From Nitrospira sp. (GTDB taxonomy: Bacteria; Nitrospirota; Nitrospiria; Nitrospirales; Nitrospiraceae), in assembly GCA_030653545.1 (NCBI GenBank), contig JAURZE010000025.1, positions 186,001 to 250,000 of the forward strand: a stretch of DNA of 64,000 nt, given 5' to 3'. The notes beneath the pieces are model-generated. The model saw only the letters and a list, made by a program, of their open reading frames with translations, made no database searches and was not told the origin of the DNA. This document shows, piece by piece, positions 7,239 through 54,629 of the stretch; the stretch's first letter is position 1; each line of letters begins with the position of its first letter. A program made the translations under genes and the position numbers.

Positions 7239-9098
7239 CTATTTACCGGATTTCTTAGCTCGGCGGCGTTCATCCGCATTGAGCAACCGTTTGCGCAGGC
7301 GGAGGTTGAGCGGAGTAATTTCCACCAATTCATCCGGTCCGATATATTCCAAGGCGAATTCCAGACTCATCTCCCGTGGCGGGGTAAGCACCAACGCTTC
7401 ATCGGTTCCTGATGCCCGCATGTTGGAGAGGTGCTTTTCCTTGCAGACGTTCACGTCCAGATCTTCGTCCCGGCTGTTTTCGCCGATCACCATGCCGCGA
7501 TAGACCTCGACGCCCGGGCCGATGAACATGGTGCCCCGTTCCTGCGTCATGAAGATCGCGTAGCCGGTGCTGGTGCCGTCTTCGTGCGCCACGAGGGAAC
7601 CGTGCGGTGCGACCATCAAATCCCGCTCTTCGGCCGGCTCATAGGCGGCAAATACGTGATGCATGATGATCGTGCCGCGGGTTTTGGCCAGCAAGAGGTT
7701 CTTGAGGCCCATGATGCCGCGCGTCGGGATATGGTATTCGAGATGCATTTCGCTGGTGCCGACATCGGAATGGATGAGGCGCATATGGCGCAGTTCGCCT
7801 CGGCGCTTCCCCATCTCCTCGATGACCGTCCCCTGGTAGGTCTCGGGGACTTGGATCGTGAGTTCTTCGTACGGTTCCGTGGCTTTGCCGTTGGCATCGC
7901 GGTGGACGATGACCTCGGGTTGCGAGACCTGGAGTTCGTACCCTTCGCGCCGCATCTGTTCGATCAAGACGCCGAGGTGGAGTTCTCCGCGGCCGGCGAC
8001 GAGGAACCGGTCGGCGCTGTCGGTTTCATGCACGCGCAAGGACACGTTCGTTTCGAGTTCTTTGAAGAGCCGATCCCGCAAGTGGCGAGACGTCAAATAC
8101 TTTCCTTCGCGTCCAGCAAACGGGCTGTTATTGACGGAGAAGCTCATTTGGACGGTCGGTTCATCGATCGTCACGCGGGGTAAGGCAATCGGATTTTCCG
8201 CATCGGCGATCGTATCACCGATGCTCACCTCATCGAGGCCTGCGACAGCCACGATCTCTCCGGCTGCCGCCTGATCGGCATCGACCCGTTCAAGGCCGGA
8301 GTACACAGCCAGGTCGGATACCTTCCCGAGGGTTTGGGCGCCGTCTTTCCCGAGCAGCATGACGGGCTGCCGTCGGGCGATGGAGCCGGATTGAATCTTC
8401 CCGATGCCCATCTTGCCTTTGTAGGGATCCTGAACGAGCGCCAGGACCAGAATTTGGAGCGGGGCTTCGGCATTGATGGCCGGTGCGGGAATTTTTTCCA
8501 GAACCGTGTCCAGCAACGGCGTAATGTCTGTCCCGGGCTTATTCACATCCAACGTCGCCTGGCCCTTGATGGCGGCGGCATAGACGATTGGGAAGTCGAG
8601 TTGTTCGTCGGTGGCGCCCAGGTGGACGAACAGATCGAACGTGCGATTCACGACGTCGTCGATCACGGCATCGGGGCGATCGATCTTATTGATCACGACG
8701 ATGGCCTTATGCCCGAGTGCGAGCGCCTTGCGCAGCACGAACGTCGTCTGCGGCATGGGCCCTTCTTTGGCGTCGATGAGGATGAGCACGCCGTCGACCA
8801 TCCGGAGCGTACGCTCGACCTCGCCGCCGAAATCGGCATGTCCCGGCGTGTCGACGATATTGATTTTGACGCCCTTATAGACGACGCTGGCATTTTTCGC
8901 TCGGATCGTAATGCCGCGCTCACGTTCCTGATCCATCGAGTCCATGATGCGCTCGCCCATGTCGTCGATCTTGCGATGGACGTGGGTCTGTCGCAACACC
9001 GCATCGACCAGGGTGGTTTTGCCGTGGTCGACGTGTGCGATGATGGCGATGTTTCGAATATCGGTGCGACGGTCGTGAGGGGCGCGTAGCTGTGTCAT
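7239..9098 (-). CDS. typA: Ribosome-associated GTPase BipA/TypA
   Basis: 619 residues, the usual length for BipA. The GTPase motifs are clear: G1 AHVDHGKT (21-28), switch region RERGITI, G3 DTPGHADF, G4 NKID. They are followed by EF-G-like domains and the BipA-specific C-terminal domain ending in basic [18 protein letters not shown]. It acts on the 50S subunit during assembly and stress adaptation. The start lies only 20 bases after a strong intrinsic terminator, which may make expression depend on attenuation. Confidence 0.95.
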
Positions 9099-9118
9099 GG
9101 TGTTGTGGTCTCGCGGTC

Positions 9119-9146
9119 AAAAAAAGGCGCCTCGACAGTGAGGCGC
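9119..9146 (-). terminator. Strong intrinsic terminator between the GT2 gene and bipA
   Basis: On the minus strand GCGCCTC and GAGGCGC (9140-9146 and 9127-9133) form a perfect 7-bp stem with a 6-base loop, followed by seven T residues (9125-9119). It ends the GT2 transcript. Because it lies in the bipA leader, it may also act as an attenuator of bipA. Confidence 0.85.
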
Positions 9147-9154
9147 AATCGCGC

Positions 9155-9184
9155 AGTATAGCCGAAGTCTCGTCTCCGGCACAA
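9155..9184 (-). promoter_or_regulatory. Weak candidate promoter of bipA upstream of the terminator
   Basis: Minus-strand TATACT (9160-9155) is a good -10. The -35 position, 18 bases upstream, is TTGTGC (9184-9179), which is poor. If used, the transcript would begin almost at the terminator hairpin. Confidence 0.3.
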
Positions 9185-9221
9185 GACACGATCTCCAGGC
9201 CTGTTAGTTTTTTCTTCGAGG

Positions 9222-10628
9222 CTACTTACTGTGCCAGGACGCGGTTCTCGTCATGGCTCCCCACGTCGCTTTCTTGCCGATCATCCAACGATACAACCCG
9301 ATCAATTTCCAGAGGGAATTCAATTGTCGATAGCCGAAGTTCTCCAAAATCGCTCCTAGGAGGAGCAGGAGGACGTGTTGAGGTTTCGGATAGACGTGGA
9401 AGGACATCTCTTCGAGGAAAAATGCACTGACCGAGAGTAGGATGCCGAGACTGATGGCGGCCACGAGCAACACAAGCCAGACTTTAAAAGAGACGAAGCC
9501 AAAAATGAATCCGACGGTGACGAATACGTAGCCGAAGACTTCGATGGCTGGGCCCAGCCACTCAAACAGGGCCATAAAAGGAAATGCCAGCCAGCCGACA
9601 GCTCCACCCTTGGGATGAAATAAGAGATCGAGATTGTTCGTCAAGCTCTCACACAGGCCGCGCTGCCACCGGATGCGCTGATTCTTGAGTGTCGTGAGGT
9701 CTTCCGGGGCCTCGGTCCAGCAAATCGGGTCGGGAGCGAAGGTGATGCGATAGGGCTTCCCGGCGAGTCGCATGTGCCGGTGGAGCCGCACGACGAGCTC
9801 CATGTCCTCGCCGATCGTATCGTGGCGGTAGCCGCCGATCCCGATTACGGTGTCCTTATGGAAGAGCCCGAAGGCGCCGGAAATGATGAGCATCGCATTG
9901 ATCGGAGACCAGCCGAGCCGGCCGAACAGGAAGGCGCGCAGGTATTCGACGATTTGAAACAGCGCGAGGATATTGGTCGGGAGCCCCACCTTCGTGAGAA
10001 ATCCGTTCTTTACTTCGCAGCCGTTGGCGACGCGGACGGTGCCGCCGCAGGCGATGGTGTGGGGGTCGTCCAGAAAGGGCTGCGCTGCCAGCCGAAGGCT
10101 GTCACGTTGGAGGATGGAATCGGCATCGATACAGCAAAATAACGGGTACAGCGAAATGTTGATTCCGGCGTTGAGCGAGTCCGCTTTGCCGCCGTTGTCT
10201 TTATCGACGACCCGCAGATTGGGCTGTGCTGGGGCGTGGTAGACCGTTCGGATCGGCTTCGTGGCCAGCCGGGCGTCATAAGCTTCGGGAAAGGGAATCA
10301 GGCCGAATTCCTTGATCAGCACGTCCAACGTCGTGTCCTTCGATCCGTCGTTGATGACCACGATTTCAAATTCAGAATAGCTCAACTGGAGAAGGGATCT
10401 GACGGTGGTCGCGATGGTCGCTTCTTCATTGAATGCGGGAACGAGCAGCGTGATCTGCGGTTCGAATCCGGTGTAGCCGTGTGGGAGGCTGTTGAGCGAG
10501 CGCTCTTCCATGTAGCGCCGCAGATGAATGGCGGCGACCACATCCAGCATCAAGTATCCTGCGGTCAGGCCGAGAAGGTAGAGCAAGAACAGCCATTCGG
10601 AAATCGATATGAGCGTGTCTATCCACAT
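9222..10628 (-). CDS. Membrane glycosyltransferase family 2 (PgaC/cellulose-synthase-like)
   Basis: 468 residues. An N-terminal membrane helix (about 8-35) is followed by a GT2 domain with LVPAFNEE, the VINDGSKD motif, NGGKADSLNAG, IDADS, an acidic GED block (TIGEDMELV) and the processive signature QRIRW (Q-x-x-R-W). Three or four C-terminal membrane helices follow. These residues mark processive synthases that polymerise and translocate beta-linked polysaccharide such as PNAG from UDP-GlcNAc. It is divergent from, and 55 bases away from, three genes for a TIM-barrel protein, a TPR/beta-barrel protein and a deacetylase. That arrangement supports a PNAG-like exopolysaccharide. No PgaD-like partner is seen. 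Confidence 0.9.
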   Translation of the reverse strand: MWIDTLISISEWLFLLYLLGLTAGYLMLDVVAAIHLRRYMEERSLNSLPHGYTGFEPQITLLVPAFNEEATIATTVRSLLQLSYSEFEIVVINDGSKDTTLDVLIKEFGLIPFPEAYDARLATKPIRTVYHAPAQPNLRVVDKDNGGKADSLNAGINISLYPLFCCIDADSILQRDSLRLAAQPFLDDPHTIACGGTVRVANGCEVKNGFLTKVGLPTNILALFQIVEYLRAFLFGRLGWSPINAMLIISGAFGLFHKDTVIGIGGYRHDTIGEDMELVVRLHRHMRLAGKPYRITFAPDPICWTEAPEDLTTLKNQRIRWQRGLCESLTNNLDLLFHPKGGAVGWLAFPFMALFEWLGPAIEVFGYVFVTVGFIFGFVSFKVWLVLLVAAISLGILLSVSAFFLEEMSFHVYPKPQHVLLLLLGAILENFGYRQLNSLWKLIGLYRWMIGKKATWGAMTRTASWHSK

Positions 10629-10683
10629 CGGTCAGTGTCGTTCCATCCGTCTTCGGGTCTGCCGATGGAGTGGTTCCTCTATC

Positions 10684-12252
10684 ATGTGGTGGAGCTGGAC
10701 CCTTGCGGCCATGTCGGTCGTGGCCCTGCCCGTAGTCGGATACGCAGAGGACATTTCGGTACCACTCTCCATTCCCATCCCGTCCTCCGTTTCTGAGATC
10801 GAGTTGTCGTATGTCGGTGAACGCACCACTCCCGCCGTGACGCTCAGTGGTCCGCCTGCTGCCGTACCCTCTCTTCCTTATCGACCGTTTGTGCCTATTC
10901 TTGATCTGCGCGGCCTGTTCGGCGAAGCCCGCCTGTTCGGCTCCTGCCAAGGACGGCAGACTCGGGCGCAGGAGGGGATCGATCTGCAGCGGGCTCCCGG
11001 AAAGGGCCTGCGGTGCGGTCAGCGCATCCCTCTGCACCAGGCAGAAATTGCCGTGGATCTCTTGTCTTACGAGACCCTGCGGATTCGTGGGCATGCGACG
11101 GGCCGGGTCGTCGTGGCATTGGAAGATCGGGCTGCCGCGCAACGAGAAGACAATCTCCCGCTTGCGACGGTGACGGGTCCGTTCGATCTCACGCTTCCGC
11201 TCAAGGGGATCGGTCAGAAGCTGGATCTCCGTTCACTGACGGCGCTGGTGGTATCAACGGAGACGGCCGGCGCGCACATTCTGTTTGAACAGATTGAAGC
11301 CGTGCAGCCGTCAGTCGTGCCCCGAGGGCCTGTTGGGATCGGATTCTGGGTGTGGACGTATCGTGAGGCGATCCGTGACCCGAATGTCCTGCTGGCGACC
11401 TGTCGGATGCAGGGCTGCTCCAGAGTGCTGATTCAGATGCCGTCTCAGGCGGATGACGACGGGCTTTGGCGTCACTATGCCAGGCTATTGATGACGATGC
11501 AGGAGGCCGGGGTTGCGGCATTTGCGCTGGACGGATATCCCGAAGCGATTCAGGAGCCCCATAAACTCGCCGATAAGATACAGAGGCTCCTGGCCCTGGT
11601 GAAACCCGGCGGGATATCCGGGGTTCAGCTTGATATCGAACCCTATCTCCTGCCGGGCTTTCTGAAAGATGAGGCCCAACTCCGTCGCTATGTCGAGACG
11701 ATTGAGACGCTGAAGGACGTCATCGGTGGACGCGTTCGTCTCTCGATGGTGATTCCCTTTTGGCTGGCGGCGCCGACCCTGGCCGGTCGTCCGTTGGCCT
11801 ATGCCGTGATGGATCGGGTCGACGAAGTCGCGGTGATGAGTTATCGCACTGACTTGGACGAAGTGCAGGACATTGCCGAAGACATCCTGCGCTACGGCGA
11901 TCTTGTCGGGACACGGGTGTGGCTGGCGGTGGAGACGACTCCGCTCCCGGTTGAGCAGCATGTGGTGCTGCGCCGTGAGATGGACCCTGACCGGGCTGAC
12001 GTGGTGCTGGACTATGATCGGCGCTTACTGCAGTGGATGCCGCAGGCAGGGGGATCGAATCTCTCGACCCGTCGGGAGTGGTTCCGCATTCATCACCGGT
12101 TCACCGTGAGGCCGGAGCGGCTGACCTTTGCCGGCCGTTCACGCGCGGAGGTGTCCGCCTCGGTGAAGCGGATTGTGGAGATGACCTCGCATCCCAGTTT
12201 TTCGGGCGTGATCATTCACGACGTGGATGGGTTTCGAGCGCTGCCGGACTAA
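10684..12252 (+). CDS. Secreted TIM-barrel glycoside-hydrolase-like protein
   Basis: 522 residues from the ATG at 10684, which gives a normal signal peptide (hydrophobic to about residue 18, cleavage after GYA). An upstream start at 10609 would overlap the divergent GT2 gene. After a beta-rich first third, a barrel-like region begins near GIGFWVWTYREA. It contains GVQLDIEPY, similar to the acidic strand-4 motif of GH18-like barrels, and later VAVMSYRTD and WLAVET. I infer a periplasmic hydrolase or polysaccharide-binding protein, comparable to the C-terminal half of PgaB but on its own chain. Its stop lies 44 bases before the TPR gene. Confidence 0.6.
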   Translation: MWWSWTLAAMSVVALPVVGYAEDISVPLSIPIPSSVSEIELSYVGERTTPAVTLSGPPAAVPSLPYRPFVPILDLRGLFGEARLFGSCQGRQTRAQEGIDLQRAPGKGLRCGQRIPLHQAEIAVDLLSYETLRIRGHATGRVVVALEDRAAAQREDNLPLATVTGPFDLTLPLKGIGQKLDLRSLTALVVSTETAGAHILFEQIEAVQPSVVPRGPVGIGFWVWTYREAIRDPNVLLATCRMQGCSRVLIQMPSQADDDGLWRHYARLLMTMQEAGVAAFALDGYPEAIQEPHKLADKIQRLLALVKPGGISGVQLDIEPYLLPGFLKDEAQLRRYVETIETLKDVIGGRVRLSMVIPFWLAAPTLAGRPLAYAVMDRVDEVAVMSYRTDLDEVQDIAEDILRYGDLVGTRVWLAVETTPLPVEQHVVLRREMDPDRADVVLDYDRRLLQWMPQAGGSNLSTRREWFRIHHRFTVRPERLTFAGRSRAEVSASVKRIVEMTSHPSFSGVIIHDVDGFRALPD

Positions 12253-12295
12253 GGCTGTATGGCGAGAGGTTGGGCCGCCAAGGATGAGCGATTCC

Positions 12296-14143
12296 ATGGG
12301 GTGGAGATGTCTGTGCAGATCTGTTGCAGGTGTGGTGCTCGCGACGCTGTTGGCCGTGGGGTGGGTGGGCGTGGACGTTGGTCTGGTGCAGGCGAACAGC
12401 GCCGAGCCCTCGCCACGCCGGCTTCTGGAGCAGGGGAAGGCGCTGGAGCAACAGAAACAGTTCCCGAAGGCCATCGCGGTCTATCGCCGATATTTGGCAG
12501 CCCGCCCGGAGAATGACGAAGTCCGTGCCGCATTAGCGAAGCTGCTCTCCTGGCAAGAGCAATGGGACGAAGCGAGCGCCTTGTATCGGGACGTCTTGTC
12601 CCGCCATCCTCTTGATGACGAAAGCCGCGTGGCTCTGGCGCGGGTGTTGTCGTGGCAACGTCGCTACGACGAGGCCAAGCAGGAGTATGAGCGGGTTCTC
12701 CGCGATCATCCGCAACATTCTGATGCGCTGACCGGGCTCGCCGATGTGCTGGTGTGGAGCGGTCATCCGGACCAGGCGATTCCGTATTATCAACGGGTGG
12801 TGGAGGCTACGGGCGATCCGGCACTCGCGGCACGCCTCCATTCGCTAAAGGCCGAGTCCTCTCAAATAATCGACCCGCCGGCTCAACGCCCGACACTCGT
12901 GCCAACCCCGGTTCGGGAGGCCGAGTCTGTCTCTGCCGATGCGAGGCAGACAGTGGAGCGCGGGCGCCAGTTCGAGGCGGCGCGGCAGTACGGCGAGGCG
13001 GTCGCCCTCTACCGTGAAGGACTGCGCCGGTCTCCTGAAAACGATGAGGTGCGGAGTGCCTTGGCGCGCGTCCTGTCGTGGCAGGGCGCGCACTCCGAGG
13101 CGGCCTCGTTATATCGTGAGGTCTTAGCGCGCCATCCCAAGGACCAGGATATTCGGGTGGCGCTGGCGCAAGTGCTCTCGTGGCAGAAACAATTCCCCGA
13201 AGCGCAGGCCTTGTATGAGCAGGTGGTTCGGGAAGAGCCTCGCCATCTAGAGGCGCGCCGCGGGCTTGCGGAGCTGGCACACTGGCAGGGGAACCGGACA
13301 GAGGCCTTGGCGCGTTATGAGGCGCTGGTGGCCGAGACGCACGATTCGGACATCGAACAGCAGCTGCGCAACGTACGATCCGAACTGCTGGTTTCGCCGC
13401 GGGCGGCCGTGGGGCAAGGGTTGACCGGGCTCCGTCTGCCCTATCGCGACTACGCCAAGATTGGCTACGGCCACTATTCTTATACGCGAAACCAGCCGGA
13501 TGAGCGGGATCTCCTCTTTGAGGTGGCCAAGCCGATCGGCGATCAGACGCTGGTGGTTCGGGCCGAGCCGATCAATCGCTTTGGCTCGCACGACACGCCG
13601 CTGTCGGCCGAATTGTACAGTCCGCTCTGGAAGCGGGCCTGGGGCTACGTTGCGGCACAAGGGACCATCAATCCGCATTTCGCCCCCAACTATTCGTTCG
13701 TCGGCGAGATGGCACAGGGGTTGGGCGGCGTCCATGCCGCGCTGGCTCCGTTCGAAGTGTCATTCGGCTATCGTCGTTTGAATTACAAGAAAGACGACAT
13801 CGATCTCCTCATGCCTGGATTGACCATCTTCCTGCCGTTCGATCTCTGGCTGACCGAGAAGGTGTATCTGATCCCCAATACCGGGGCCTTCACATTGTCC
13901 TCGCAATTGACCTGGCGGCCGACGGAGCGGGTGCAGGTCTTCGCGTCGGGGTCGTTCGGAACGTCGGGCGAACGGATCGTGGCCACGCAAGATTTTACCC
14001 GGGTGCAGAGCCGGACGCTCCAAGGGGGAGTGACGGTCCCCGTGAATGATCGATTTTCGGTTGAGGTGTCGGGCTATTACGAAGACCGCGGATTTCTCTA
14101 TGTCAGACGGGGCGGCAACCTGAGTCTGATCTATCACTGGTAG
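12296..14143 (+). CDS. TPR protein with C-terminal YaiO-type outer-membrane beta-barrel
   Basis: About 615 residues. The start at 12296 gives a typical signal peptide and has AAGGA 11 bases upstream; 12284 is an alternative. At least seven TPR-like repeats follow in two blocks with the recurring signature L-S-W-Q (KLLSWQ, RVLSWQ, QVLSWQ), separated by a proline-rich linker. The last 230 residues are amphipathic strands ending in an aromatic residue (LSLIYHW), as expected for an outer-membrane barrel of the YaiO family. The layout parallels PgaA, which passes de-acetylated PNAG through the outer membrane. It is 3 bases from the deacetylase gene. Confidence 0.8.
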   Translation: MGWRCLCRSVAGVVLATLLAVGWVGVDVGLVQANSAEPSPRRLLEQGKALEQQKQFPKAIAVYRRYLAARPENDEVRAALAKLLSWQEQWDEASALYRDVLSRHPLDDESRVALARVLSWQRRYDEAKQEYERVLRDHPQHSDALTGLADVLVWSGHPDQAIPYYQRVVEATGDPALAARLHSLKAESSQIIDPPAQRPTLVPTPVREAESVSADARQTVERGRQFEAARQYGEAVALYREGLRRSPENDEVRSALARVLSWQGAHSEAASLYREVLARHPKDQDIRVALAQVLSWQKQFPEAQALYEQVVREEPRHLEARRGLAELAHWQGNRTEALARYEALVAETHDSDIEQQLRNVRSELLVSPRAAVGQGLTGLRLPYRDYAKIGYGHYSYTRNQPDERDLLFEVAKPIGDQTLVVRAEPINRFGSHDTPLSAELYSPLWKRAWGYVAAQGTINPHFAPNYSFVGEMAQGLGGVHAALAPFEVSFGYRRLNYKKDDIDLLMPGLTIFLPFDLWLTEKVYLIPNTGAFTLSSQLTWRPTERVQVFASGSFGTSGERIVATQDFTRVQSRTLQGGVTVPVNDRFSVEVSGYYEDRGFLYVRRGGNLSLIYHW

Positions 14144-14146
14144 GGT

Positions 14147-16045
14147 ATGGAACGATCAATCCTCATCCGTCTGACTGCAGTCGCAACCCTTTTTCTGTCG
14201 ATCGTCATCGGCTCGTGGGTCTTGTTCGGCCCGCGATCTATTCAGCACATCGACCTTCCCGATCAGGCCTTCCATCGTTTCCCCGGCGTCTCAGGTCCCG
14301 ATCATGCCACCGTTGTGCCTCCGCGCGTGTCGACGGCGTGGACGACCTATGCAGAAGGGGCGAAGAGCCGCCTGGCGATCTTATTGACCGATCCGGATTC
14401 CTCCTGGCTGGGATTGGCGCATGGGCTCAAATCCATCGGCGTCCCCTTTCGCATCACGCGCGATGTTCGCGAAGCCCTGACGCATCAGGTGGTGTTGGTC
14501 TACCCGATGATCTCGGGGAAGGTGCTCAGTTCCCAAGAGCTACAGGCGCTGGCCGAGTTTCCCCAAGCCGGCGGGACGTTGATCGGGGTACAGGTATTGG
14601 GCGGCGGGTTGAATGAGACCTTCGGTTTTCGCGAGGCAGTGGTCTCGCGGGAGCGCTATGACCTGCACCTGGCGGAGTCCGATCCGTTGCTGGCGGAGTT
14701 GACCGAGCTGCGCGAGCGGCATCTCCGTGTCGGCATTCGAGACAAAGGGATCGAGGTGATGGGAACCTACGGTTATACGGAGAGTGAGGCCCCGCTCGCC
14801 CGATTTGACGACGGCACTGCGGCCGTCACGCAGAAAACCTACGGTAAAGGCCGAGCCTATGCAATCGGGCTTGATCTCGGCTTCCTGCTGCTCAAAGGGT
14901 ACAACAATCGCGGAGAGGAACTTGTTCAGACGTTCGACAATCAGTTTGATCCGACGCTCGATGTCTGGCTGCGGCTGCTGAAGTCGATCTATCGCACCGC
15001 CCAGGCAGGCGCGGTGACGCTGGGAACGGTGCCCTTCGGCAAGTCGCTGTCGGTCATGCTCACACACGATGTGGATTTTACGGAGTCCATTAAAAACGCG
15101 GTGGATTATGCGGAGTATGAAAAAAGCCAGGGGTTGATTGGCACGTACTTTATCCAGGTGAAATACATTCGCGACTACAACGATGATATTTTCTTCAATG
15201 ACGAAGGGATGCGGTATCTCGCGCGTCTTGCAGGTCTCGGCATGGAGCTGGGGAGTCACACGATCGCCCACTCGAGGGTCTTCAACCGGTTTCCGATGGG
15301 GACGGGGCGCGAAGCCTATCCCGCCTATGCGCCGTTCGTGAAGGATCGGACGACGGCCTTGAACGCGAGCATCCTCGGCGAATTGCGGGTCAGCAAGTTC
15401 TTGATCGATCACTTTTCAGGCCAGTCCATCGTGTCATTCAGGCCGGGCGAGTTGTCCAATCCCTTCAGTCTGCCTCAAGCCCTGCTGGCGACCGGATATC
15501 GATATAGCTCAACGGCCACTGCGAACAATTCGCTGACCCATCTGCCGTATCAGCTGAACTACGATCGCTTGACGGACAGCGAAGTCGAACTGTTCGAGTT
15601 CCCCGTCACGATTGAAGACGAGGAGCTGCCGAAGATGGGCGACCGGCTGCCGGAAGCCTTGGAGGTCGCGCGCCAGATCAGCCGGTACGGTGGCTCAATG
15701 GTTGTGCTCATCCATCCCAACATCCTCGATCATAAACTGGCCTTTGAGAAAGGGTTTGTCGAAGGCGTGCGGCCCTACGCCTGGTTCGGCTCGATACGAG
15801 AATTCGGCCGCTGGTGGGCGGTGCGCAATCAAGTGCAGCTTGATGTGACGCAAAACGGGCGAGGCGGGACCGTCACGATCACGGCTCCCGATTCGGTGAC
15901 TGGCTTGACGTTTGAAGCGCCGGGTGGTTGGCGATTGGATGCATCACGATCATCCGTGAAGGGGATTGAACAACGCGGGGCCATCGTCGTTCTTCCCGAG
16001 CTGGAAGGGACTCATACGCTCGTATTTGTTCCCGGATCCCGGTAA
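14147..16045 (+). CDS. NodB-family polysaccharide deacetylase, membrane anchored
   Basis: 632 residues with an N-terminal anchor (about 8-28). The N-terminal half resembles a class-I glutamine-amidotransferase-like or ThuA-like fold. The NodB homology region follows: motif 1 LTHDVDF near 305-311 (catalytic base Asp and metal Asp), motif 2 HTIAHS near 371 (H-x3-H metal ligands), and a later FRPGE and LIHPN. It would remove N-acetyl groups from a polymer in the periplasm, as the N-terminal half of PgaB does. It follows the TPR/barrel gene by 3 bases, so they are one operon. Confidence 0.85.
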   Translation: MERSILIRLTAVATLFLSIVIGSWVLFGPRSIQHIDLPDQAFHRFPGVSGPDHATVVPPRVSTAWTTYAEGAKSRLAILLTDPDSSWLGLAHGLKSIGVPFRITRDVREALTHQVVLVYPMISGKVLSSQELQALAEFPQAGGTLIGVQVLGGGLNETFGFREAVVSRERYDLHLAESDPLLAELTELRERHLRVGIRDKGIEVMGTYGYTESEAPLARFDDGTAAVTQKTYGKGRAYAIGLDLGFLLLKGYNNRGEELVQTFDNQFDPTLDVWLRLLKSIYRTAQAGAVTLGTVPFGKSLSVMLTHDVDFTESIKNAVDYAEYEKSQGLIGTYFIQVKYIRDYNDDIFFNDEGMRYLARLAGLGMELGSHTIAHSRVFNRFPMGTGREAYPAYAPFVKDRTTALNASILGELRVSKFLIDHFSGQSIVSFRPGELSNPFSLPQALLATGYRYSSTATANNSLTHLPYQLNYDRLTDSEVELFEFPVTIEDEELPKMGDRLPEALEVARQISRYGGSMVVLIHPNILDHKLAFEKGFVEGVRPYAWFGSIREFGRWWAVRNQVQLDVTQNGRGGTVTITAPDSVTGLTFEAPGGWRLDASRSSVKGIEQRGAIVVLPELEGTHTLVFVPGSR

Positions 16046-48409: not shown

Positions 48410-48487
48410 GGTCCCATCGTCTAGCCTGGCCTAGGACGGAGCCCTCTCAAGGCTTAAACACGGGTTCAAATCCCGTTGGGACCACCA
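48410..48487 (+). tRNA. tRNA-Glu (anticodon CTC), integration target
   Basis: A 78-base cloverleaf with encoded CCA. The acceptor GGTCCCA pairs with TGGGACC. The anticodon loop CTCTCAA carries CTC, decoding GAG. The T-arm is GGGTTCAAATCCC. Its last 34 bases, plus two following ones, recur exactly at 54594-54629. The intact gene was therefore kept when an element inserted at its 3' end. Confidence 0.95.
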
Positions 48488-48489
48488 CC
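48454..48489. repeat. attL (36-bp direct repeat in tRNA-Glu)
   Basis: Identical to 54594-54629. It starts with TTAAACACGGG, covers the T-arm, acceptor strand and CCA, and extends two bases past the tRNA. Confidence 0.92.
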
Positions 48490-48495
48490 TTGATT

Positions 48496-49512
48496 TTATT
48501 GAAGTTTTAGACTCCGTGTTTGAGGAACATACGAATGTTCCTCGAACATGGAATTCTTGTCACTCGGAAAACCCGCCATCATCTGCCGCGCGGACTCTTC
48601 GTAAAACGACACGGCTTGTTTCAGTTGTGCCGGACGAATCATCGTATAGATCTGCGTGGTATCAATGCGCGCATGTCCAAGCAGCGCGCGCACTTGCTCC
48701 AGGTCGTGCCGCTGTTCCAGCACTTCCATAGCAACGCCATGGCGGAGATCATGCGGCTTCAACATGGGATAGCCGATCATCCGTCCATAGAGTTTGCACA
48801 ATCGCCAGATGTTTTTTCCGGTCATCGGTGCTCGCTGTTTTCCGAGTGACCTCCGTCCCCACACAGACCAAAAGAGTGGCGTCTCCGGTGTGACCGTCGT
48901 GACAGACGGCGTGACCACCTGCGCGACGTAGGCGTGCAGATACCGCATGACGGGTTCGGGCAGCGGAATGTCTCTCGTATGACCGCCCTTGACCCGGACA
49001 CGGCGCAATCCCCATAGCGCATCCAAGTGTCTCGCTTGAAGCGTTGCCACGGACTCTCGACGCATGCCGGTAAAGCGCAGGATCAGGAAGACAGCCACAT
49101 CACGAGGCCGCTGTCGGCTTCTGGCCGCTTCAATCAATGCATCCATCAGGGCCGGTGTCGGCACCTGTTTGGGAGGCTCGATCCGATGCGGAGGCCGATC
49201 CATTCCGGCAATGGGATTCGCCTGCAACGCTTCCCGCTTCACCAGCCAATTACAAAAGCTGGAAAGCGCCGACTGGCGACTCCTGATCGTGCCCAGTGTG
49301 AGATCACGTGCGGCCATCTCATCCATCCAGTCCTGAATCACCGCCTTGGACAAGTCTGAGAGTCGCGCCACTCGTCCGAAGCGCCCGCGCCCGAACACTA
49401 AGAACTGCTCTAACACCCAGCGATAGGCCTGCACCCCTCCTTCCGTTTTCCCTCGCTGTTTGAGTTGGTACTGACAAAACTGCTCCACCAATTCTACTAA
49501 GGGTCGTGTCAT
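48496..49512 (-). CDS. int: Tyrosine recombinase (integrase) of the tRNA-Glu element
   Basis: 338 residues from the ATG at 49512; the frame extends upstream to 49647 without homology. The SAM-like N-terminal DNA-binding domain (about 5-100) is followed by the catalytic domain. Its residues are Arg in FTGMRRESV, the HDLRH box, GHARIDTT and the Tyr nucleophile in QIYT. It should integrate and excise by site-specific recombination at the 36-bp att core. The C-terminus ends 6 bases from attL and overlaps a palindromic array. The gene reads toward the tRNA. Confidence 0.93.
   Translation of the reverse strand: MTRPLVELVEQFCQYQLKQRGKTEGGVQAYRWVLEQFLVFGRGRFGRVARLSDLSKAVIQDWMDEMAARDLTLGTIRSRQSALSSFCNWLVKREALQANPIAGMDRPPHRIEPPKQVPTPALMDALIEAARSRQRPRDVAVFLILRFTGMRRESVATLQARHLDALWGLRRVRVKGGHTRDIPLPEPVMRYLHAYVAQVVTPSVTTVTPETPLFWSVWGRRSLGKQRAPMTGKNIWRLCKLYGRMIGYPMLKPHDLRHGVAMEVLEQRHDLEQVRALLGHARIDTTQIYTMIRPAQLKQAVSFYEESARQMMAGFPSDKNSMFEEHSYVPQTRSLKLQ
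48522..48549. repeat. GAACAT palindromic array next to attL
   Basis: Three alternating half-sites: GAACAT (48525-48530), ATGTTC (48535-48540) and GAACAT (48544-48549). The first two lie in a perfect 9-bp inverted repeat (GAGGAACAT/ATGTTCCTC). The array lies inside the last codons of the integrase, 33 bases from attL, so it may be an arm-type or excisionase site. It could equally serve as a hairpin terminator. Confidence 0.5.
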
Positions 49513-49863
49513 GACAGTGCCTTTCCGGTCCCCGCCACAACTACGACTTCGCCGGGAGGAAGTATGCGGAGGCACCAGCCAGCCGTCAAGCCGTGTCGGA
49601 GACTCTTGGGCCTTGTCAGTGACGATCAGTTCCGTATCCATGCTCACATCATCGAATGATCAAATCGGGGGAGTCTTGCGACACCCCCGCACCCCCCAGA
49701 TGCGCCCGCGCGTCCGCCGGCGCCGGAAGGGGGGCTGGGCGGCCCTCAGAGCATCGGCCTGGCCTTCCTGCGGCCCTTCAGGCCCGCCCGCTGCACGAAG
49801 TGCCGTCCAGCACCTCAGAATTGTCCCTGCCCCGGACTGTGGCGGGGGGCAGGAACTGAATTG
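49513..49863. other. GC-rich gap with one hairpin
   Basis: 351 bases between the integrase start and the zinc-ribbon gene. The only structure seen is CCTGCCCC (49826-49833) pairing with GGGGCAGG (49846-49853) just after the zinc-ribbon stop, without a U-tract. Runs of C and G at 49680-49740 are notable. No gene is supported. Confidence 0.5.
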
Positions 49864-50313
49864 TTATCGAACAAGCGCCTTCAGTTGGTCTTTATCCAAT
49901 CGTGTCCCGAATTCCCGTTCGACCCGTTCGGCCATCTCCTGCCAGGTTCGTCCGGCGGCTTTCATCTCTTTGAGGACATCGAGCGCTTTTACTAACGAGC
50001 GGTCCGCCAGGCCCCCGGGTTCTGGTTGGCGTATCCCCAATGCCTTGCCCAGATCTTTCCGTAACGAGTCTTGGAGTGCCGCTCGACTGAATGAGGTGAC
50101 GACGGGAGCAGGAGCCGGTTTCGGTTTGCGTGGCCGATCCCAATAGGGGCTTTTGCAACTGGGGCAGCGGAGTGGCTTCTTAGGGCGACGGGGCCACCAC
50201 CTGTTCGCGCACCGCAGGCAGGTCTGCTGTTGGAGCACTGCCGAGTCGGGTCTTCCCGATGCGAGTGCTCCCTTGATAGCAGCATCTGCTCGTAATCTGT
50301 TGAAATCCCTCAT
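49864..50313 (-). CDS. Zinc-ribbon protein of the mobile element
   Basis: 149 residues. A four-cysteine ribbon (CLRC, 13 residues, CPSC) near residue 32 is embedded in basic sequence (RWWPRRPKKPLR). A Pro-rich linker and a helical C-terminal domain ending TWQEMAERVEREFG and LDKDQLKALVR follow; this resembles small helix-turn-helix modules of mobilisation proteins. I infer DNA binding. No start context is decisive. It lies beyond paired hairpins from the ribbon-helix-helix gene and is probably in the same unit. Confidence 0.6.
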   Translation of the reverse strand: MRDFNRLRADAAIKGALASGRPDSAVLQQQTCLRCANRWWPRRPKKPLRCPSCKSPYWDRPRKPKPAPAPVVTSFSRAALQDSLRKDLGKALGIRQPEPGGLADRSLVKALDVLKEMKAAGRTWQEMAERVEREFGTRLDKDQLKALVR

Positions 50314-50333
50314 CTTACGTCCCTGGAATTAGC

Positions 50334-50389
50334 GCCCCCGTTTTACTAAGCGGGGGCTTTCTGCCCGCCGGGCGTAGCCGGCGGGGCAG
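50334..50389. repeat. Two adjacent strong hairpins
   Basis: GCCCCCG (50334-50340) pairs with CGGGGGC (50351-50357) around a 10-base loop. Next, CTGCCCGCCGG (50361-50371) pairs with CCGGCGGGGCAG (50378-50389) with one bulged G. They lie between two leftward element genes: terminators, mRNA processing sites, or a transfer-origin fold. Confidence 0.6.
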
Positions 50390-50399
50390 CACGCCTCGC

Positions 50400-50630
50400 T
50401 TAGTCCATCGTTGGTTTGGCCTTGAGTCGGCGACTCAGGGCATCCATCGCCTTCATCCCGATCGTCCGTCCGACGATCCTCAAGGCTTGCAACTCCCCAT
50501 CCACGACCATTTCCATCAGCATGCAGGCCCGGATGTACTCCGAGACGGTCATCCCCGCTTTCTTGGCGCACTTCTCGATCAGTGCCTTTTCTTCCTCGTT
50601 CACGCGAAACTGCATCATTTGAGTTTTCAT
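50400..50630 (-). CDS. Ribbon-helix-helix protein (MobC-like or antitoxin-like)
   Basis: 76 residues from the ATG at 50630, which has GGAGGG six bases upstream. The ribbon strand MMQFRVNEEE, helix EKALIEKCAKKAG and helix MTVSEYIRACML form a clear RHH DNA-binding fold of the kind seen in MobC relaxosome proteins and antitoxins. No toxin is adjacent, which favours a mobilisation or copy-control role. A good promoter with repeated GCATGACA motifs lies upstream, so autoregulation is likely. Confidence 0.75.
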   Translation of the reverse strand: MKTQMMQFRVNEEEKALIEKCAKKAGMTVSEYIRACMLMEMVVDGELQALRIVGRTIGMKAMDALSRRLKAKPTMD

Positions 50631-50654
50631 AAGCCCTCCGGTGTATTTCACAAT

Positions 50655-50693
50655 GCATGACAGAACTGTACGTCGTATCGCATGACACGTCAA
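50655..50693 (-). promoter_or_regulatory. Promoter and direct repeats of the RHH gene
   Basis: Minus-strand TTGACG (50693-50688) and TACAGT (50670-50665) are 17 bases apart. GCATGACA occurs at 50655-50662 and 50680-50687, one copy in the spacer and one just past the -10. This spacing suits an RHH operator. Confidence 0.6.
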
Positions 50694-50876
50694 GGATTAT
50701 CAAGGTACGTAGGCCCTCTTAAATATACGGCGATGATATACTTGCCAGTTCTTGCTCAAAGTGAATAGTTGCAAGCCTTTTTAGGATTCAGCATACTTTT
50801 GGTAGGCCTGGAATGCGGTCGCTTCCTTCTTAACCAATGAATAGGTCTGTCTCGACAAGGAAAGTAGGATAGTTTC

Positions 50877-52214
50877 ATGGAAATCCTCATGCTCATCTCT
50901 CTCGTGCTGCTCAATGGCATGCTGGCCATGTCCGAAATCGCCCTCGTGACGGCACGGCGTAGCCGATTGGCGGATCTTGCAGCCGAGGGCGATCACTCCT
51001 CTGAGGTTGCTCTGCATCTTGGCGCAGAGCCGACACAGTTTTTGTCCACGATCCAAATTGGGATCACCGCGATTGGCATACTGAACGGTATTGTCGGTGA
51101 ATCGGCATTGGCCGCGCCACTTGCCATCTGGTTGCAACGATTCGGGATTGAGCAACAGTCGAGCGAAATAGGCGCGACGATACTGGTGGTATGTATCATC
51201 ACCTATGTCTCTATCGTTGTTGGGGAATTGGTGCCTAAACGTATAGGTCAATTCAATGCTGAGGGCATTGCCAGACTTGTGGCTCGCCCGATCTCAGTCT
51301 TAGCTAGAGTGTCGCGACCGTTCGTGCACCTTCTGTCGTACTCGACTGATGGCATACTGCAATTACTGGGAAAACGCGATTTGGGGAGTGCCAATATGAC
51401 CGAGGACGATATCCACGCTGTGCTTAAGGAGGGTTCAGAATCCGGAGTTATCGAAAAGCAGGAGCATGACATGGTGCGCAATGTGTTTCGTCTGGATGAT
51501 CGTCACGTCGGCTCTCTGATGATCCCGAGTAGCAACATCGACTATCTAGACATCCATCAACCTCTTGAAATGAACCTCAAGCATGTCGCAGAGTCTGTAC
51601 ACTCACGTTTTCCAGTGTGCCGGGGAGGCCTCCAGGAAATTTTAGGAGTCCTTACGGCCAAGCAATTGTTCAACCAGCTACATACTAATGGCGTGACTGA
51701 TCTTGCGACACAACTTCAGCCGTGCGTCTACGTGCCAGAATCGCTGACTGGAATGGAGCTTTTGGAACAGTTCCGTGTTTCCGGGACCGATATGGTATTT
51801 GTAATCGACGAATATGCCGAAGTACAGGGATTAGTTACCTTGCAGGACGTCCTGGAAGCGGTGACTGGCGAATTTCAGCCCCATAATCCCGAGGACGCAT
51901 GGGCAGTCCAACGTGAAGATGGTTCATGGCTGTTAGACGGTCTTATTCCAATTCCTGAGCTGAAAGACCGCCTGGAACTAAGAACCGCCCCGGAGGATGA
52001 CAAGGGGAGATATCACACGCTCGGTGGCATGATGATGTGGCTGCTTGGTCATATGCCACGCGTCGGTGATAGAAGTGAATGGGAACAGTGGCGGTTTGAA
52101 ATTATCGATTTAGATGGTAGGCGGGTTGACAAGGTACTGGCGAGCCGGGTAGCAGAGCAGTCGAACTTCCACAGTAACGTGGACTCCTCCCAATCGCAGG
52201 AAAATGAACACTGA
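50877..52214 (+). CDS. CNNM/CorC-type membrane protein (DUF21-CBS-CBS-CorC_HlyC)
   Basis: 445 residues. A DUF21 membrane domain has four hydrophobic segments and the conserved NGMLAMSEIALV and VGELVPKRIGQ. Two CBS domains follow (MIPSSNIDYLD..., VFVIDEYAEVQGLVTLQDVLEAVTGE), then a C-terminal CorC_HlyC domain (WLLDGLIPIPEL, HTLGGMMMWLLGHMPRVGD). The family exports or senses Mg2+ and related metals. Composition is more AT-rich than the chromosomal genes, consistent with arrival on the element. It is the largest cargo gene and the only metabolic-type one. Confidence 0.88.
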   Translation: MEILMLISLVLLNGMLAMSEIALVTARRSRLADLAAEGDHSSEVALHLGAEPTQFLSTIQIGITAIGILNGIVGESALAAPLAIWLQRFGIEQQSSEIGATILVVCIITYVSIVVGELVPKRIGQFNAEGIARLVARPISVLARVSRPFVHLLSYSTDGILQLLGKRDLGSANMTEDDIHAVLKEGSESGVIEKQEHDMVRNVFRLDDRHVGSLMIPSSNIDYLDIHQPLEMNLKHVAESVHSRFPVCRGGLQEILGVLTAKQLFNQLHTNGVTDLATQLQPCVYVPESLTGMELLEQFRVSGTDMVFVIDEYAEVQGLVTLQDVLEAVTGEFQPHNPEDAWAVQREDGSWLLDGLIPIPELKDRLELRTAPEDDKGRYHTLGGMMMWLLGHMPRVGDRSEWEQWRFEIIDLDGRRVDKVLASRVAEQSNFHSNVDSSQSQENEH

Positions 52215-52705
52215 ATGCCATGAGCCATGCACTATACCCTGAAGGGATAGTTGCGATTAAGCATAATTAGGTCTTCAACAGATTTCAGCAGTTACAGAAG
52301 ACCCCTTGTGCTAAAAGTTGTTCGAATCTATACGAACAGCTGAAATCAGTAGAACTGCAGGAACGTTCCTAAGCTTCGGCATTCAAATAGGAAACGGGGA
52401 AACCATTTGAAACACCGAGTCTTTTTAAATGCACCTTACTCACATTCCTAAACCGCTGGCTGCATAAGCTCCCCGTATTTCTTCACACATCTCCCAGACC
52501 CGCAGAATTGTCTCAATTGCAGAATGTCCCGATTCTATTCGCCTAGTTCACATTGCGCGTTGTCGGGGGAGTGCAATGCCTGAAGCGTTGCATCGGAAAT
52601 GCAGAATGTCCCCGATTCTCCGGCCCCTCTTTTGAAAGACGATTGCCTTGACCTAATGCGTAAGACGGTACTATGATCGATACGATAAATGTAAGGAGGT
52701 AGGTT
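52215..52705. other. 491-base AT-rich gap with short direct repeats
   Basis: No gene is supported. TGCAGAATGTCCCGATTCT (52518-52536) recurs with one extra C at 52600-52620, and a partial GCAGAATTGTCTC precedes them at 52502. The vapBC promoter is at the right end. Confidence 0.55.
52648..52677 (+). promoter_or_regulatory. vapBC promoter
   Basis: TTGACC (52648-52653) and TATGAT (52672-52677) are separated by 18 bases and lie 28 bases before the antitoxin. AAGGAGG (52693-52699) is the ribosome site. Confidence 0.6.
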
Positions 52706-52915
52706 ATGGCGACAACGACGATCTCGTCCAAGTTCCAAGTCGTGATCCCGAAGGAAGTTCGGGACAAGCTCCATCTCGCCCCCAGCCAGCGGTTGCAGGT
52801 GGTGGAAAAGGGAGGCGTCATTACGCTGGTGCCGGAAGTGCCGCTGAAATCGCTGAAGGGTGCGCTCAAGGGCATGCCCGCGACAGATCTCCGCGAGAAG
52901 AAGGACCGGGTGTGA
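52706..52915 (+). CDS. vapB: AbrB/SpoVT-type antitoxin VapB
   Basis: 69 residues. The swapped-hairpin DNA-binding domain has TISSKFQVVIPKEVRDKL and the G-G-V strand (VVEKGGVITLVP). The C-terminal tail (LKSLKGALKGMPATD) should wrap the toxin. It overlaps vapC by 4 bases (GTGA), a normal coupling for toxin-antitoxin pairs, and likely represses its own promoter. Confidence 0.9.
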   Translation: MATTTISSKFQVVIPKEVRDKLHLAPSQRLQVVEKGGVITLVPEVPLKSLKGALKGMPATDLREKKDRV

Positions 52916-53283
52916 AGGTCTTATTGGATTCCAGCGGGTGGATTGAATTCTTCACCGATGGTCCTCTGGCCGACCGCTATGCGGCCTATCTCACCCCTCG
53001 GTATCAGCTCATTACGCCGACCATCGTGCTGTATGAGGTCTACAAGAAGATCAAACGAGAGCGGGGCGAAGAGACGGCGTTATTGTTTGCGGGCCGGCTC
53101 AATGCCACCGAGGTCGTTCAACTGACAGAATCGATCGCCCTTCTCGCCGCTGATGTGAGTTTGCGGCACGGGTTAGCCATGGCCGACGCGATTGTCTACG
53201 CGACGGCAAGAGATCAGGAAGCTGAAGTTGTTACGGGGGATGCGGATCTCAAGGATTTACCAGGGGTCGTGTACATCAGGTAG
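52912..53283 (+). CDS. vapC: PIN-domain toxin VapC
   Basis: 123 residues. The four acidic metal-binding residues are visible: Asp6 (LLDSSGW), Glu in YEVYKKI, Asp in MADAIVYATA and Asp in TGDADL. The protein starts with GTG. VapC toxins cut tRNA or rRNA and are held by VapB. The intact pair on the element should stabilise it after integration. Confidence 0.93.
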   Translation: MKVLLDSSGWIEFFTDGPLADRYAAYLTPRYQLITPTIVLYEVYKKIKRERGEETALLFAGRLNATEVVQLTESIALLAADVSLRHGLAMADAIVYATARDQEAEVVTGDADLKDLPGVVYIR

Positions 53284-53504
53284 GGAGCCATCACCTTCAT
53301 CTCTTTCAGGCTTCCACGCACTTCCGGTCCCTTGTAGAGTCCTCCGGGGGCATGGAGGCTTGTGAGCAGAGAAGAGGCGCACAGGACCAAGGTATTGATA
53401 CAGCTTCTTTTATGAAAGGCTTGAGGCGTCCGACAAATTGCAAGCCAATCTTCGACGCGTGAGGCGACTCGTTGGCCTGTGTTCGAGCCTGAGATCGAGA
53501 ATGG

Positions 53505-53573
53505 TCAACTCCGCCCTTCCCTTGCAAGTTCCTCCTCTTCCGGCGTCAGTGCTGGTATGGGATCAGTGTTCAT
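53505..53573 (-). pseudogene. Truncated small gene coupled to the UDG-like gene
   Basis: An ATG at 53573 overlaps the UDG-like stop (ATGA) and reads 22 residues (MNTDPIPALTPEEEELAREG) before a stop. Another frame continues with charged coding-like sequence (LDLRLEHRPTS). This looks like a translationally coupled gene broken by a frameshift; remains may reach about 53306. Confidence 0.4.
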
Positions 53574-54226
53574 GTCAGTGATCGGGCCTGACTGACGAAC
53601 AAAGGTATGTGGCCTTGCCAGAAACGTCGCCAAAACCGTCCGTTGCCTGAAGGAAGGTAAGTGGCTGAAAGGAGTGGCTGGCCTTGCTCCTGGAACATCT
53701 TACCCTGGACGGAAGAAATATTGCCTCTCTCAAACGTGCGGGCGAACGAAGACTCAGGAAAGAGCATTGAGAGGGCAGCGGATGCCGGTCTGCCTAATGC
53801 AAGGATAGCGGCTGGTGAAAAGAAGGCGATCTGGTCCTTCAGATGAGATTCCGCCGGATGCTGTAATAACATTCTAAGCCCGTCTGTTTTGACATTGCCG
53901 ATGGGGTTCTTTAGTGGGCGAGGGAAAGATTGGAGCAGAAAGTAGCCGGCATCACGAAAGGAAACAAGGCCGCGGTCAGGACCGTCGGAGGATAGTTTGA
54001 GCAGAAGCAGGAGCTTTTCCCGCAAGTCATCTTGCTTGCTGGTTTTATCCTGAACAGTCCAGAACCCACCATCTTGTGGTGGCGCTTCTGAGATGAACAA
54101 GATTGATCGTGGTCGTGGCTGAGGTATCTCGGGCCACCCTCCACGAAAGGGAGCAAAGAATGCTCCATTCTGGCTCTCGCACCGGCGACAAGTTCGAATC
54201 GTGTCCTGGATGTCTTCCCAATTCAT
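53570..54226 (-). CDS. Uracil-DNA-glycosylase-superfamily-like protein
   Basis: 218 residues from the ATG at 54226 (MNWEDIQDTIRTCRRC). An N-terminal CRRC pair, ILFISEAPPQDGGFW (position of UDG motif A, normally GEAPG) and ALGRPA followed by an ATYLPSGNGRFW segment (position of motif B) resemble family 4/5 UDG proteins. The Fe-S set of four cysteines is incomplete, and the catalytic residues are not certain. It may be a DNA-repair or defence gene of the element, or a divergent protein with the fold only. Confidence 0.5.
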   Translation of the reverse strand: MNWEDIQDTIRTCRRCESQNGAFFAPFRGGWPEIPQPRPRSILFISEAPPQDGGFWTVQDKTSKQDDLREKLLLLLKLSSDGPDRGLVSFRDAGYFLLQSFPRPLKNPIGNVKTDGLRMLLQHPAESHLKDQIAFFSPAAILALGRPASAALSMLFPESSFARTFERGNISSVQGKMFQEQGQPLLSATYLPSGNGRFWRRFWQGHIPLFVSQARSLT

Positions 54227-54593
54227 TATATGAGAACCTATCTCCGTCTTAGATAGGAATGAGTTTATTTGTTTCGAACAGCATTTTTTAGCATTCAGCT
54301 GCTTTACCTCTTTTATATGAACTAATGCCCTGAGTCTCCAGAGGCTAGGCGGACCGTAGGAAGGTATCAAGGTTTATGGGAGCGTCGGAGATGCCAAAGG
54401 AAGCCAGTTCCAGTTGTATCGGTTCGATCTGGATTAGCGACTTGAGACATTCTGAGAGACCGCGAAGTATTCTGGACAGAACCTAGTCTGCTCCAGTGTA
54501 TTTCTCTAGCCTTCGTGTTTTAGTCGTACCCATTTCTGACCTGTGTGAAATCATCGAAGCTCGCGAAAATAAAGGGCGAAGTCGTAGTCGTCT
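54227..54593. other. Right end of the element, no gene seen
   Basis: 367 AT-rich bases between the UDG-like start and attR. It contains no supported gene, and I see no clear promoter for the leftward UDG-like gene. Confidence 0.4.
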
Positions 54594-54629
54594 TTAAACA
54601 CGGGTTCAAATCCCGTTGGGACCACCACC
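54594..54629. repeat. attR (36-bp direct repeat)
   Basis: Exact copy of 48454-48489, a remnant of tRNA-Glu 3' sequence that lacks the 5' half of the tRNA. It marks the right end of the integrated element. Confidence 0.92.

Follow-up and report, generated by a model that had tools for sequence, protein, structure and literature searches.

Genes and Boundaries of the Element

The window analyzed here is a stretch of 64,000 nucleotides from contig JAURZE010000025.1 (positions 186,001 to 250,000; G000:C25:186001-250000) of the Nitrospira sp. assembly GCA_030653545.1, a 3.94 Mb, 99.9% complete genome (G000) whose closest relatives are Nitrospira metagenome-assembled genomes. It contains a 6.14 kb element that is inserted in a tRNA-Glu(CTC) gene, is bounded at both ends by a 36-bp perfect direct repeat, and carries an integrase, two predicted or putative DNA-binding proteins, a set of cargo genes, and a non-coding region that is also found in filamentous prophages of the genus (Table 1).

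Table 1. Features of the tRNA-Glu(CTC) element, in window coordinates
Feature	Position	Strand	Basis or remark
tRNA-Glu(CTC), integration site, intact	48410-48487	+	ARAGORN; 3' end covered by attL copy
attL, 36-bp perfect repeat copy	48454-48489	+	single copy in empty sites L025/L026
Tyrosine integrase, XerC/D-like, open reading frame of 383 aa	48496-49647	-	PF00589 1.6e-20
60-nt core motif, all classes	49663-49722		87 stretches in 84,980 genomes
Region homologous to Nitrospira inovirus intergenic region, candidate replication origin and/or packaging signal	49664-49795		phage-only profile
Terminal hairpin TTCCTGCCCC...GGGGCAGGGA	49823-49856	-	phages: hairpin of other sequence, same place
Zn-ribbon protein, 149 aa, class B hallmark, predicted DNA-binding	49864-50313	-	alignment of relatives
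NikA-like ribbon-helix-helix (RHH) protein, 76 aa, putative repressor or origin accessory	50400-50630	-	PF21983 1.4e-13
CNNM/CorC-family CBS transporter, cargo	50877-52214	+	PF01595 2.1e-43, PF03471
VapB/AbrB-type antitoxin, cargo	52706-52915	+	PF04014 1.4e-10
VapC PIN-domain toxin, cargo	52912-53283	+	PF01850 9.6e-19
Weak uracil-DNA-glycosylase (UDG)-like protein, cargo	53570-54226	-	NF040953 0.0021, PF03167 0.17
Conserved non-coding right end adjoining attR, putative integrase arm region	54510-54593		common to G005/G007/G030 elements
attR, second 36-bp repeat copy	54594-54629	+	repeat spacing 6140

An earlier sequence-only reading of this DNA had described a complete integrated element, with a perfect 36-bp repeat enclosing about 6.1 kb and including the 3' end of an intact tRNA-Glu, and with an integrase stopping 6 bases from that repeat; the coordinates, the intact tRNA, and the end of the integrase reading frame at 48496 were all confirmed. 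The search for an empty tRNA-Glu(CTC) site that it had proposed was run in related genomes and identified attB sites in two of them, G032 (L025) and G025 (L026), where the flanks are continuous and overlap by one repeat copy (36 and 42 nt, respectively; in L025 window position 48489 maps to 3371 and 54594 to 3336, and L026 behaves likewise), so that the repeat is not a chance occurrence and the island is a site-specific insertion. Together with at least five other relatives bounded by attachment (att) repeats, these empty sites bear out the view that the element is complete, site-specifically integrated, and satellite-like, and the locus displays what characterizes an integrated genomic island, namely an integrase, direct att repeats at a tRNA, and an empty site in relatives. 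The tRNA-Glu(CTC) site holds related elements in three further genomes (G026, G005, and G007) and a decayed one in G030, with the right end of the window element being 83-85% identical to L022-L024, and it is a hot spot, since in G022 (L027, 3140-7272) it is occupied by a different insert of ~4.1 kb with an integrase remnant.

The translation of the integrase, for which ATG 49641 or 49512 is the more likely start, shows the full set of six catalytic residues (R, K, HxxR, H, Y). The Zn-ribbon protein has no PDB match at E<=0.001 (searched with an AlphaFold model of pLDDT 64), and its relatives in viral contigs match chiefly the generic Zn-ribbon part, none of their 80 loci having the shared region, Rep, or Zot. 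Regarding the cargo, the VapBC pair of the earlier reading is upheld by Pfam matches to a MazE/AbrB-type antitoxin and a PIN toxin, while the nearest NCBIfam family of the CNNM/CorC transporter is PaeA, with a score under the family cut-off. The UDG-like protein matched neither a PDB structure nor a known defense family, and PADLOC detected no known defense gene on the element; as a possible UDG-superfamily member, this protein may be an anti-phage or repair glycosylase.

No excisionase, replication initiator (Rep), relaxase, transposase, terminase, or phage structural gene was detected on the element in Pfam, NCBIfam, and PHROGs scans, nor were the genes of inovirus prophages (Zot/pI ATPase, coat, Rep). 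The statement of the sequence-only reading that relaxase, transposase, and phage genes are missing is therefore literally true; it holds for genes, but it overlooked the non-coding region before the integrase, which matches the replication/packaging-type region of Nitrospira filamentous prophages and lends the term 'satellite' a concrete sense. A tailed-phage satellite of the phage-inducible chromosomal island (PICI), P4, or phage-inducible chromosomal minimalist island (PICMI) kind was considered and rejected, given that the PHROGs and Pfam scans revealed no terminase, primase, or capsid or capsid-remodeling gene.

A Non-coding Region Shared with Filamentous Prophages

In filamentous phages the replication origins and the packaging hairpin are grouped in one intergenic region. 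In the window element, the region homologous to that of Nitrospira filamentous prophages lies between the integrase and the Zn-ribbon gene and measures ~190 nt when the hairpins up to ~49856 are included; it came to light through a search for relatives of the integrase end, which returned short stray matches to 49663-49722 beside other tRNA integrases. The core motif delimited by these matches consists of a GC-rich hairpin, GGGGGAGTC-TTGC-GACACCCCC, followed by CCCCCC..TGCGCCCGCG..CCGCCGGCG, and its consensus reads GGGGG(A/C)GTCT-NN-CGACACCCCC-NNN-CCCCC-(4-12)-TGCGCCCGCGT-NN-CCGCCGGC. The central two loop bases of the motif are hypervariable in all classes of elements that carry it, with 13 of the 16 dinucleotides as well as 1-nt loops being represented, whereas the neighboring bases are conserved. 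The arms of the terminal hairpin differ in sequence among the classes designated A, B, and C' below, yet they still pair, and the single-stranded window and phage copies of the region both fold into several hairpins (z -2.9 and -3.6).

A scan of 84,980 species genomes detected the first part of the core motif in 87 stretches, all of them in Nitrospirota records, and the motif pattern is present in 18 of the 79 genomes of the genus, with the reversed control pattern giving zero. Four loci with the same motif (L037, L043, L051, and L085) are titled 'uncultured Nitrosospira' and are probably mislabeled Nitrospira bins. The motif is kept beside integrases of ~30% identity at many tRNAs, on which grounds its interpretation as an integrase-specific site was rejected. 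The search pattern itself in part dictates which letters of the core hairpin are invariant; independent of it are the conservation outside the pattern, the diverged copies in further phages, and the profile searches.

These profile searches extend the homology well beyond the core. A profile built from phage copies only matches window positions 49664-49795 at E=7.1e-16, the next best match in the 64 kb being 0.62. When the 60-nt motif is left out, the class A (prophage) profile still picks up class B loci in the collinear position (best 2.9e-6; for the window, 0.032 in the multi-locus search and 0.0037 in the 64-kb search, against a best of 4.6 in the reversed-sequence control), and in the opposite direction a class B profile, likewise lacking the motif, recovers phage loci with E-values as low as 5.7e-10. 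Among eight further zot prophages without the exact motif, seven carry the region (8.5e-12 to 1e-40), which makes it a general part of these phages and not an artifact of the search pattern; it also adjoins zot in the IMG/VR viral contig L231 (2e-29). In the zot-bearing prophages the region lies between the coat genes and the integrase, with the same order and orientation relative to integrase and tRNA as in the window element.

Three Classes of Elements Carrying the Core Motif

The core motif is carried by three classes of elements, A, B, and C (with a variant C'), all of which are present in the host genome: A on contig C33, C on contig C14, and B as the window element. Class A comprises 15 loci with zot and/or phage radC, which are filamentous (inovirus) prophages found across Nitrospira and are marked by matches to Rep_trans (2e-38), Zot (5e-24), DUF2523/pVI, RadC, ssb, and a pIII-like protein, along with small coat proteins with a signal peptide or transmembrane segment. 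Their gene order is Rep-ssb-pIII-pVI-Zot-coat-region-xis-int, with radC ahead of the motif, often at a tRNA, and some loci end at contig ends. The class A prophage of the host (L029; G000:C33, rc 8203-15600) lies at tRNA-Lys and encodes Zot, Rep, ssb, pVI, a pIII-like protein, coat proteins, and radC; no second att copy of >=14 nt was found for it. Viral contigs gave no match when scanned with single zot and integrase sequences, an alignment-based zot search of the same kind of contigs returned three, and no cultured phage was found for this inovirus group.

Classes C (33 loci) and C' (6 loci) combine Rep_trans, the motif, xis, an integrase, and cargo, without zot. The class C element of the host (L030; G000:C14, 8514-17096) occupies tRNA-Met within a 46-bp att repeat and spans 8.5 kb, with an integrase, xis, Rep_trans, and a helix-turn-helix (HTH) regulator; its cargo resembles a two-partner secretion pair. 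A composite arrangement is seen in L122 (G065:C56, 2230-16600), in which a class C element at tRNA-Arg precedes a class B core whose end lies at the deoxyhypusine-synthase flank of the site occupied by the window element; this is either a rearrangement between elements or a chimeric assembly. Six additional motif loci (L063, L077, L093, L103, L110, and L119) have no assigned Rep, Zot, or Zn-ribbon gene nearby and possibly represent further satellite classes.

Class B, to which the window element belongs, comprises 14 loci with an RHH or HTH_17 regulator, the Zn-ribbon gene, the motif, and an integrase. The strong Zn-ribbon hits in the 79 genus genomes adjoin the shared region in every case (14/14). 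None of the class B loci checked has Rep or Zot, and Zot, pIII, pVI, and ssb are absent from the window and from each class B locus. The att-bounded members measure 6140 (window), 6603, 6085, 5125, 4679, and 5650 bp and occupy tRNA-Glu(CTC) and tRNA-Val(CAC), with further class B elements in tRNA-Arg(CCT); the decayed element in G030 is 5972 bp long. Cargo varies between them, and that of L022 (5027-7449) and L023 (6043-6724; both in reverse-complement coordinates), as read from the sequence, includes DUF433/DUF5615-like toxin-antitoxin genes and a Schlafen/AlbA-like ATP-binding protein.

Relative to the window element, dN/dS is 0.04-0.16 for the RHH gene, 0.17-0.51 for the Zn-ribbon gene, and 0.03-0.61 for the integrase (0.03-0.17 against the other tRNA-Glu elements); class B is a living family, and these ratios show purifying selection. 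They also bear on the notion that the element is a decayed prophage or frozen genomic island, immobile and with the phage intergenic region as a relic. Such a remnant would account for the absence of any remaining phage gene and has a parallel in the decayed G030 relative, but it sits poorly with at least 14 independent loci sharing the same core, intact reading frames, and dN/dS well below 1, as well as with the different integrases and tRNAs and the perfect att repeats with empty sites, and we regard it as very improbable.

Probable Dependence on Filamentous Phages

Taken together, the element is probably an integrated, Rep-less satellite of Nitrospira filamentous (inovirus-type) phages. It is integrated, it has empty counterparts, its region is homologous to and collinear with that of the phages, and it is devoid of Rep, coat, pIII, pVI, Zot, relaxase, and terminase genes; carrying the phage control region but no particle or replication genes, it probably borrows the copying and export machinery of a phage, so that replication and packaging would proceed through a helper. 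What would be expected of a satellite is found, that is, a cis-acting region in common with a phage (by homology only), no assembly genes, and a candidate helper in the host genome, the zot prophage on C33. The element fits the satellite kind on every feature tested except an own Rep gene, which RS1-type satellites possess and for which the window offers no Rep_trans.

In the cycle we propose, the integrase would excise the element from tRNA-Glu, and the Rep_trans of the helper would nick the GC-rich hairpin origin, with rolling-circle replication yielding single-stranded circles. The hairpin-rich region would serve the helper as origin and/or packaging signal, the Zot-type assembly ATPase and coat proteins of the helper would export the circles as filaments, and these circles would reintegrate in a new cell. 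The RHH protein (HTH in sister elements) and the Zn-ribbon protein may regulate the element or recruit the helper Rep, while VapBC, the CNNM transporter, and the glycosylase-like gene would be cargo, VapBC perhaps having a stabilizing role too. As the Zn-ribbon gene occupies the position of Rep in class C, we conjecture that class B has given up its initiator in exchange for a protein that either controls the element or brings in a foreign Rep.

Several observations weigh against this reading. A zot gene is present in 3 of the 12 class B genomes and absent from 9, a co-occurrence no greater than chance (Fisher p=0.17); and neither the core motif pattern in IMG/VR nor the window integrase in the viral contig collection was found. 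The hairpin loop does not contain CT'AA, the canonical nick sequence at Rep_trans origins, and the RHH protein resembles relaxosome proteins. Moreover, the commonest sister class, in which Rep ends 29 nt from the motif, has the 60-nt core alone in common, which renders a packaging role of the remaining region unsure, and in the Rep tree most zot-prophage Reps are far from the class C Reps, so class C did not arise recently from the phages identified here.

Some of these points favor a parasite of replication only, in which the region would be a double- and single-strand origin for the Rep_trans of phages or sister elements, and the element, once excised, would replicate in trans and move by other means such as transformation or generalized transfer. 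A sister class with Rep and just the 60-nt core, as well as the lack of zot in most class B genomes, would agree with this, and a GC-rich hairpin origin is in keeping with the biology of Rep_trans initiators, which nick in the loop of such a hairpin and bind a repeat nearby (PMC9371924). Nevertheless, zot phages and class B share the region beyond the core, exceeding what a core origin needs, and the broad range of sites and species in which such elements occur implies that transfer is efficient, making this explanation rather unlikely.

The resemblance of the RHH protein to NikA (1.4e-13), the one feature of the element that points this way, raises instead the prospect of conjugative mobilization, with the hairpin as an origin of transfer (oriT) for a Rep_trans/MOBT-like relaxase acting in trans and with relaxosome accessory roles for the RHH and Zn-ribbon proteins; MOBT relaxases, which are relatives of Rep_trans, indeed have their nick site in a GC-rich hairpin (PMC9371924). 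Yet PF03432, PF08751, and VirB4 were not found in the whole host genome, and relaxase and motif occur independently of each other in the genus (3/18 against 11/61, p=1), which together lower the likelihood of this route; moreover, the zot phages to which the region belongs are not conjugative. The oriT candidate suggested by the RHH protein was weakened accordingly by the inclusion of zot prophages among the motif loci, and we consider mobilization improbable. Of the earlier description 'mobilisable or satellite-like', the second half is retained and the first, in its conjugative sense, is not, there being no relaxase on the element.

Beyond the single element, we put at about even the chance of a broader picture, in which a family of Rep-less satellites parasitizes the Rep and extrusion apparatus of inoviruses while keeping the ~190-nt region, two DNA-binding proteins, and an integrase, coexists in one genome with Rep-bearing satellites and full phages as three tiers of dependence, and moves toxin-antitoxin, transporter, and possible defense cargo among nitrifiers. 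Very few cases of filamentous-phage satellites are known, and if this picture is true, it would add a large phylum-specific set of them, one form lacking replication genes altogether, in the environmentally central nitrite oxidizers and comammox bacteria, and would account for the movement of small tRNA islands without visible transfer genes. The shared region constitutes a precise candidate origin or packaging signal for this inovirus group and a sequence handle for other hidden satellites.

Comparison with Known Systems

Nitrospira inoviruses or their satellites were not found in the literature searched, and papers beyond it may exist. Among the satellites of other filamentous phages, RS1 is almost identical to its helper, carries its own Rep (RstA) and a repressor, and relies on the XerCD of the host at dif. 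The window element, in contrast, has no Rep, inserts into a tRNA with a tyrosine integrase of its own, and is recognizably related to its candidate helpers in the ~190-nt region alone. What it has in common with RS1, a satellite of CTXphi in Vibrio cholerae (PMC11389934), is that both are small integrated elements without morphogenesis genes that share a filamentous-phage control region and depend, in our case presumptively, on phage machinery. A second point of reference is the plasmid pDolos, an inovirus satellite (Schmid et al. 2024, as cited in PMC11389934), with which the likeness lies in the presumed dependence on an inovirus; pDolos is described as an autonomous plasmid, whereas the window element is integrated and has no replication gene.

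With the integrative and conjugative or mobilizable elements of the MOBT/Rep_trans type (ICEBs1, ICESt3; PMC9371924), which feature a Rep_trans-type initiator, a nick in a GC-rich hairpin, and an integrase aboard, the comparison breaks down at the relaxase, the HTH-relaxase, and the type IV secretion system, none of which the window element has, and at the canonical nick sequence, which is likewise absent. Counterparts within the genus are the class C elements, in which the core motif likewise stands beside xis/int in a tRNA-integrated element with an RHH or HTH regulator, cargo, and no zot, and which differ in having a Rep_trans gene in place of the Zn-ribbon gene.

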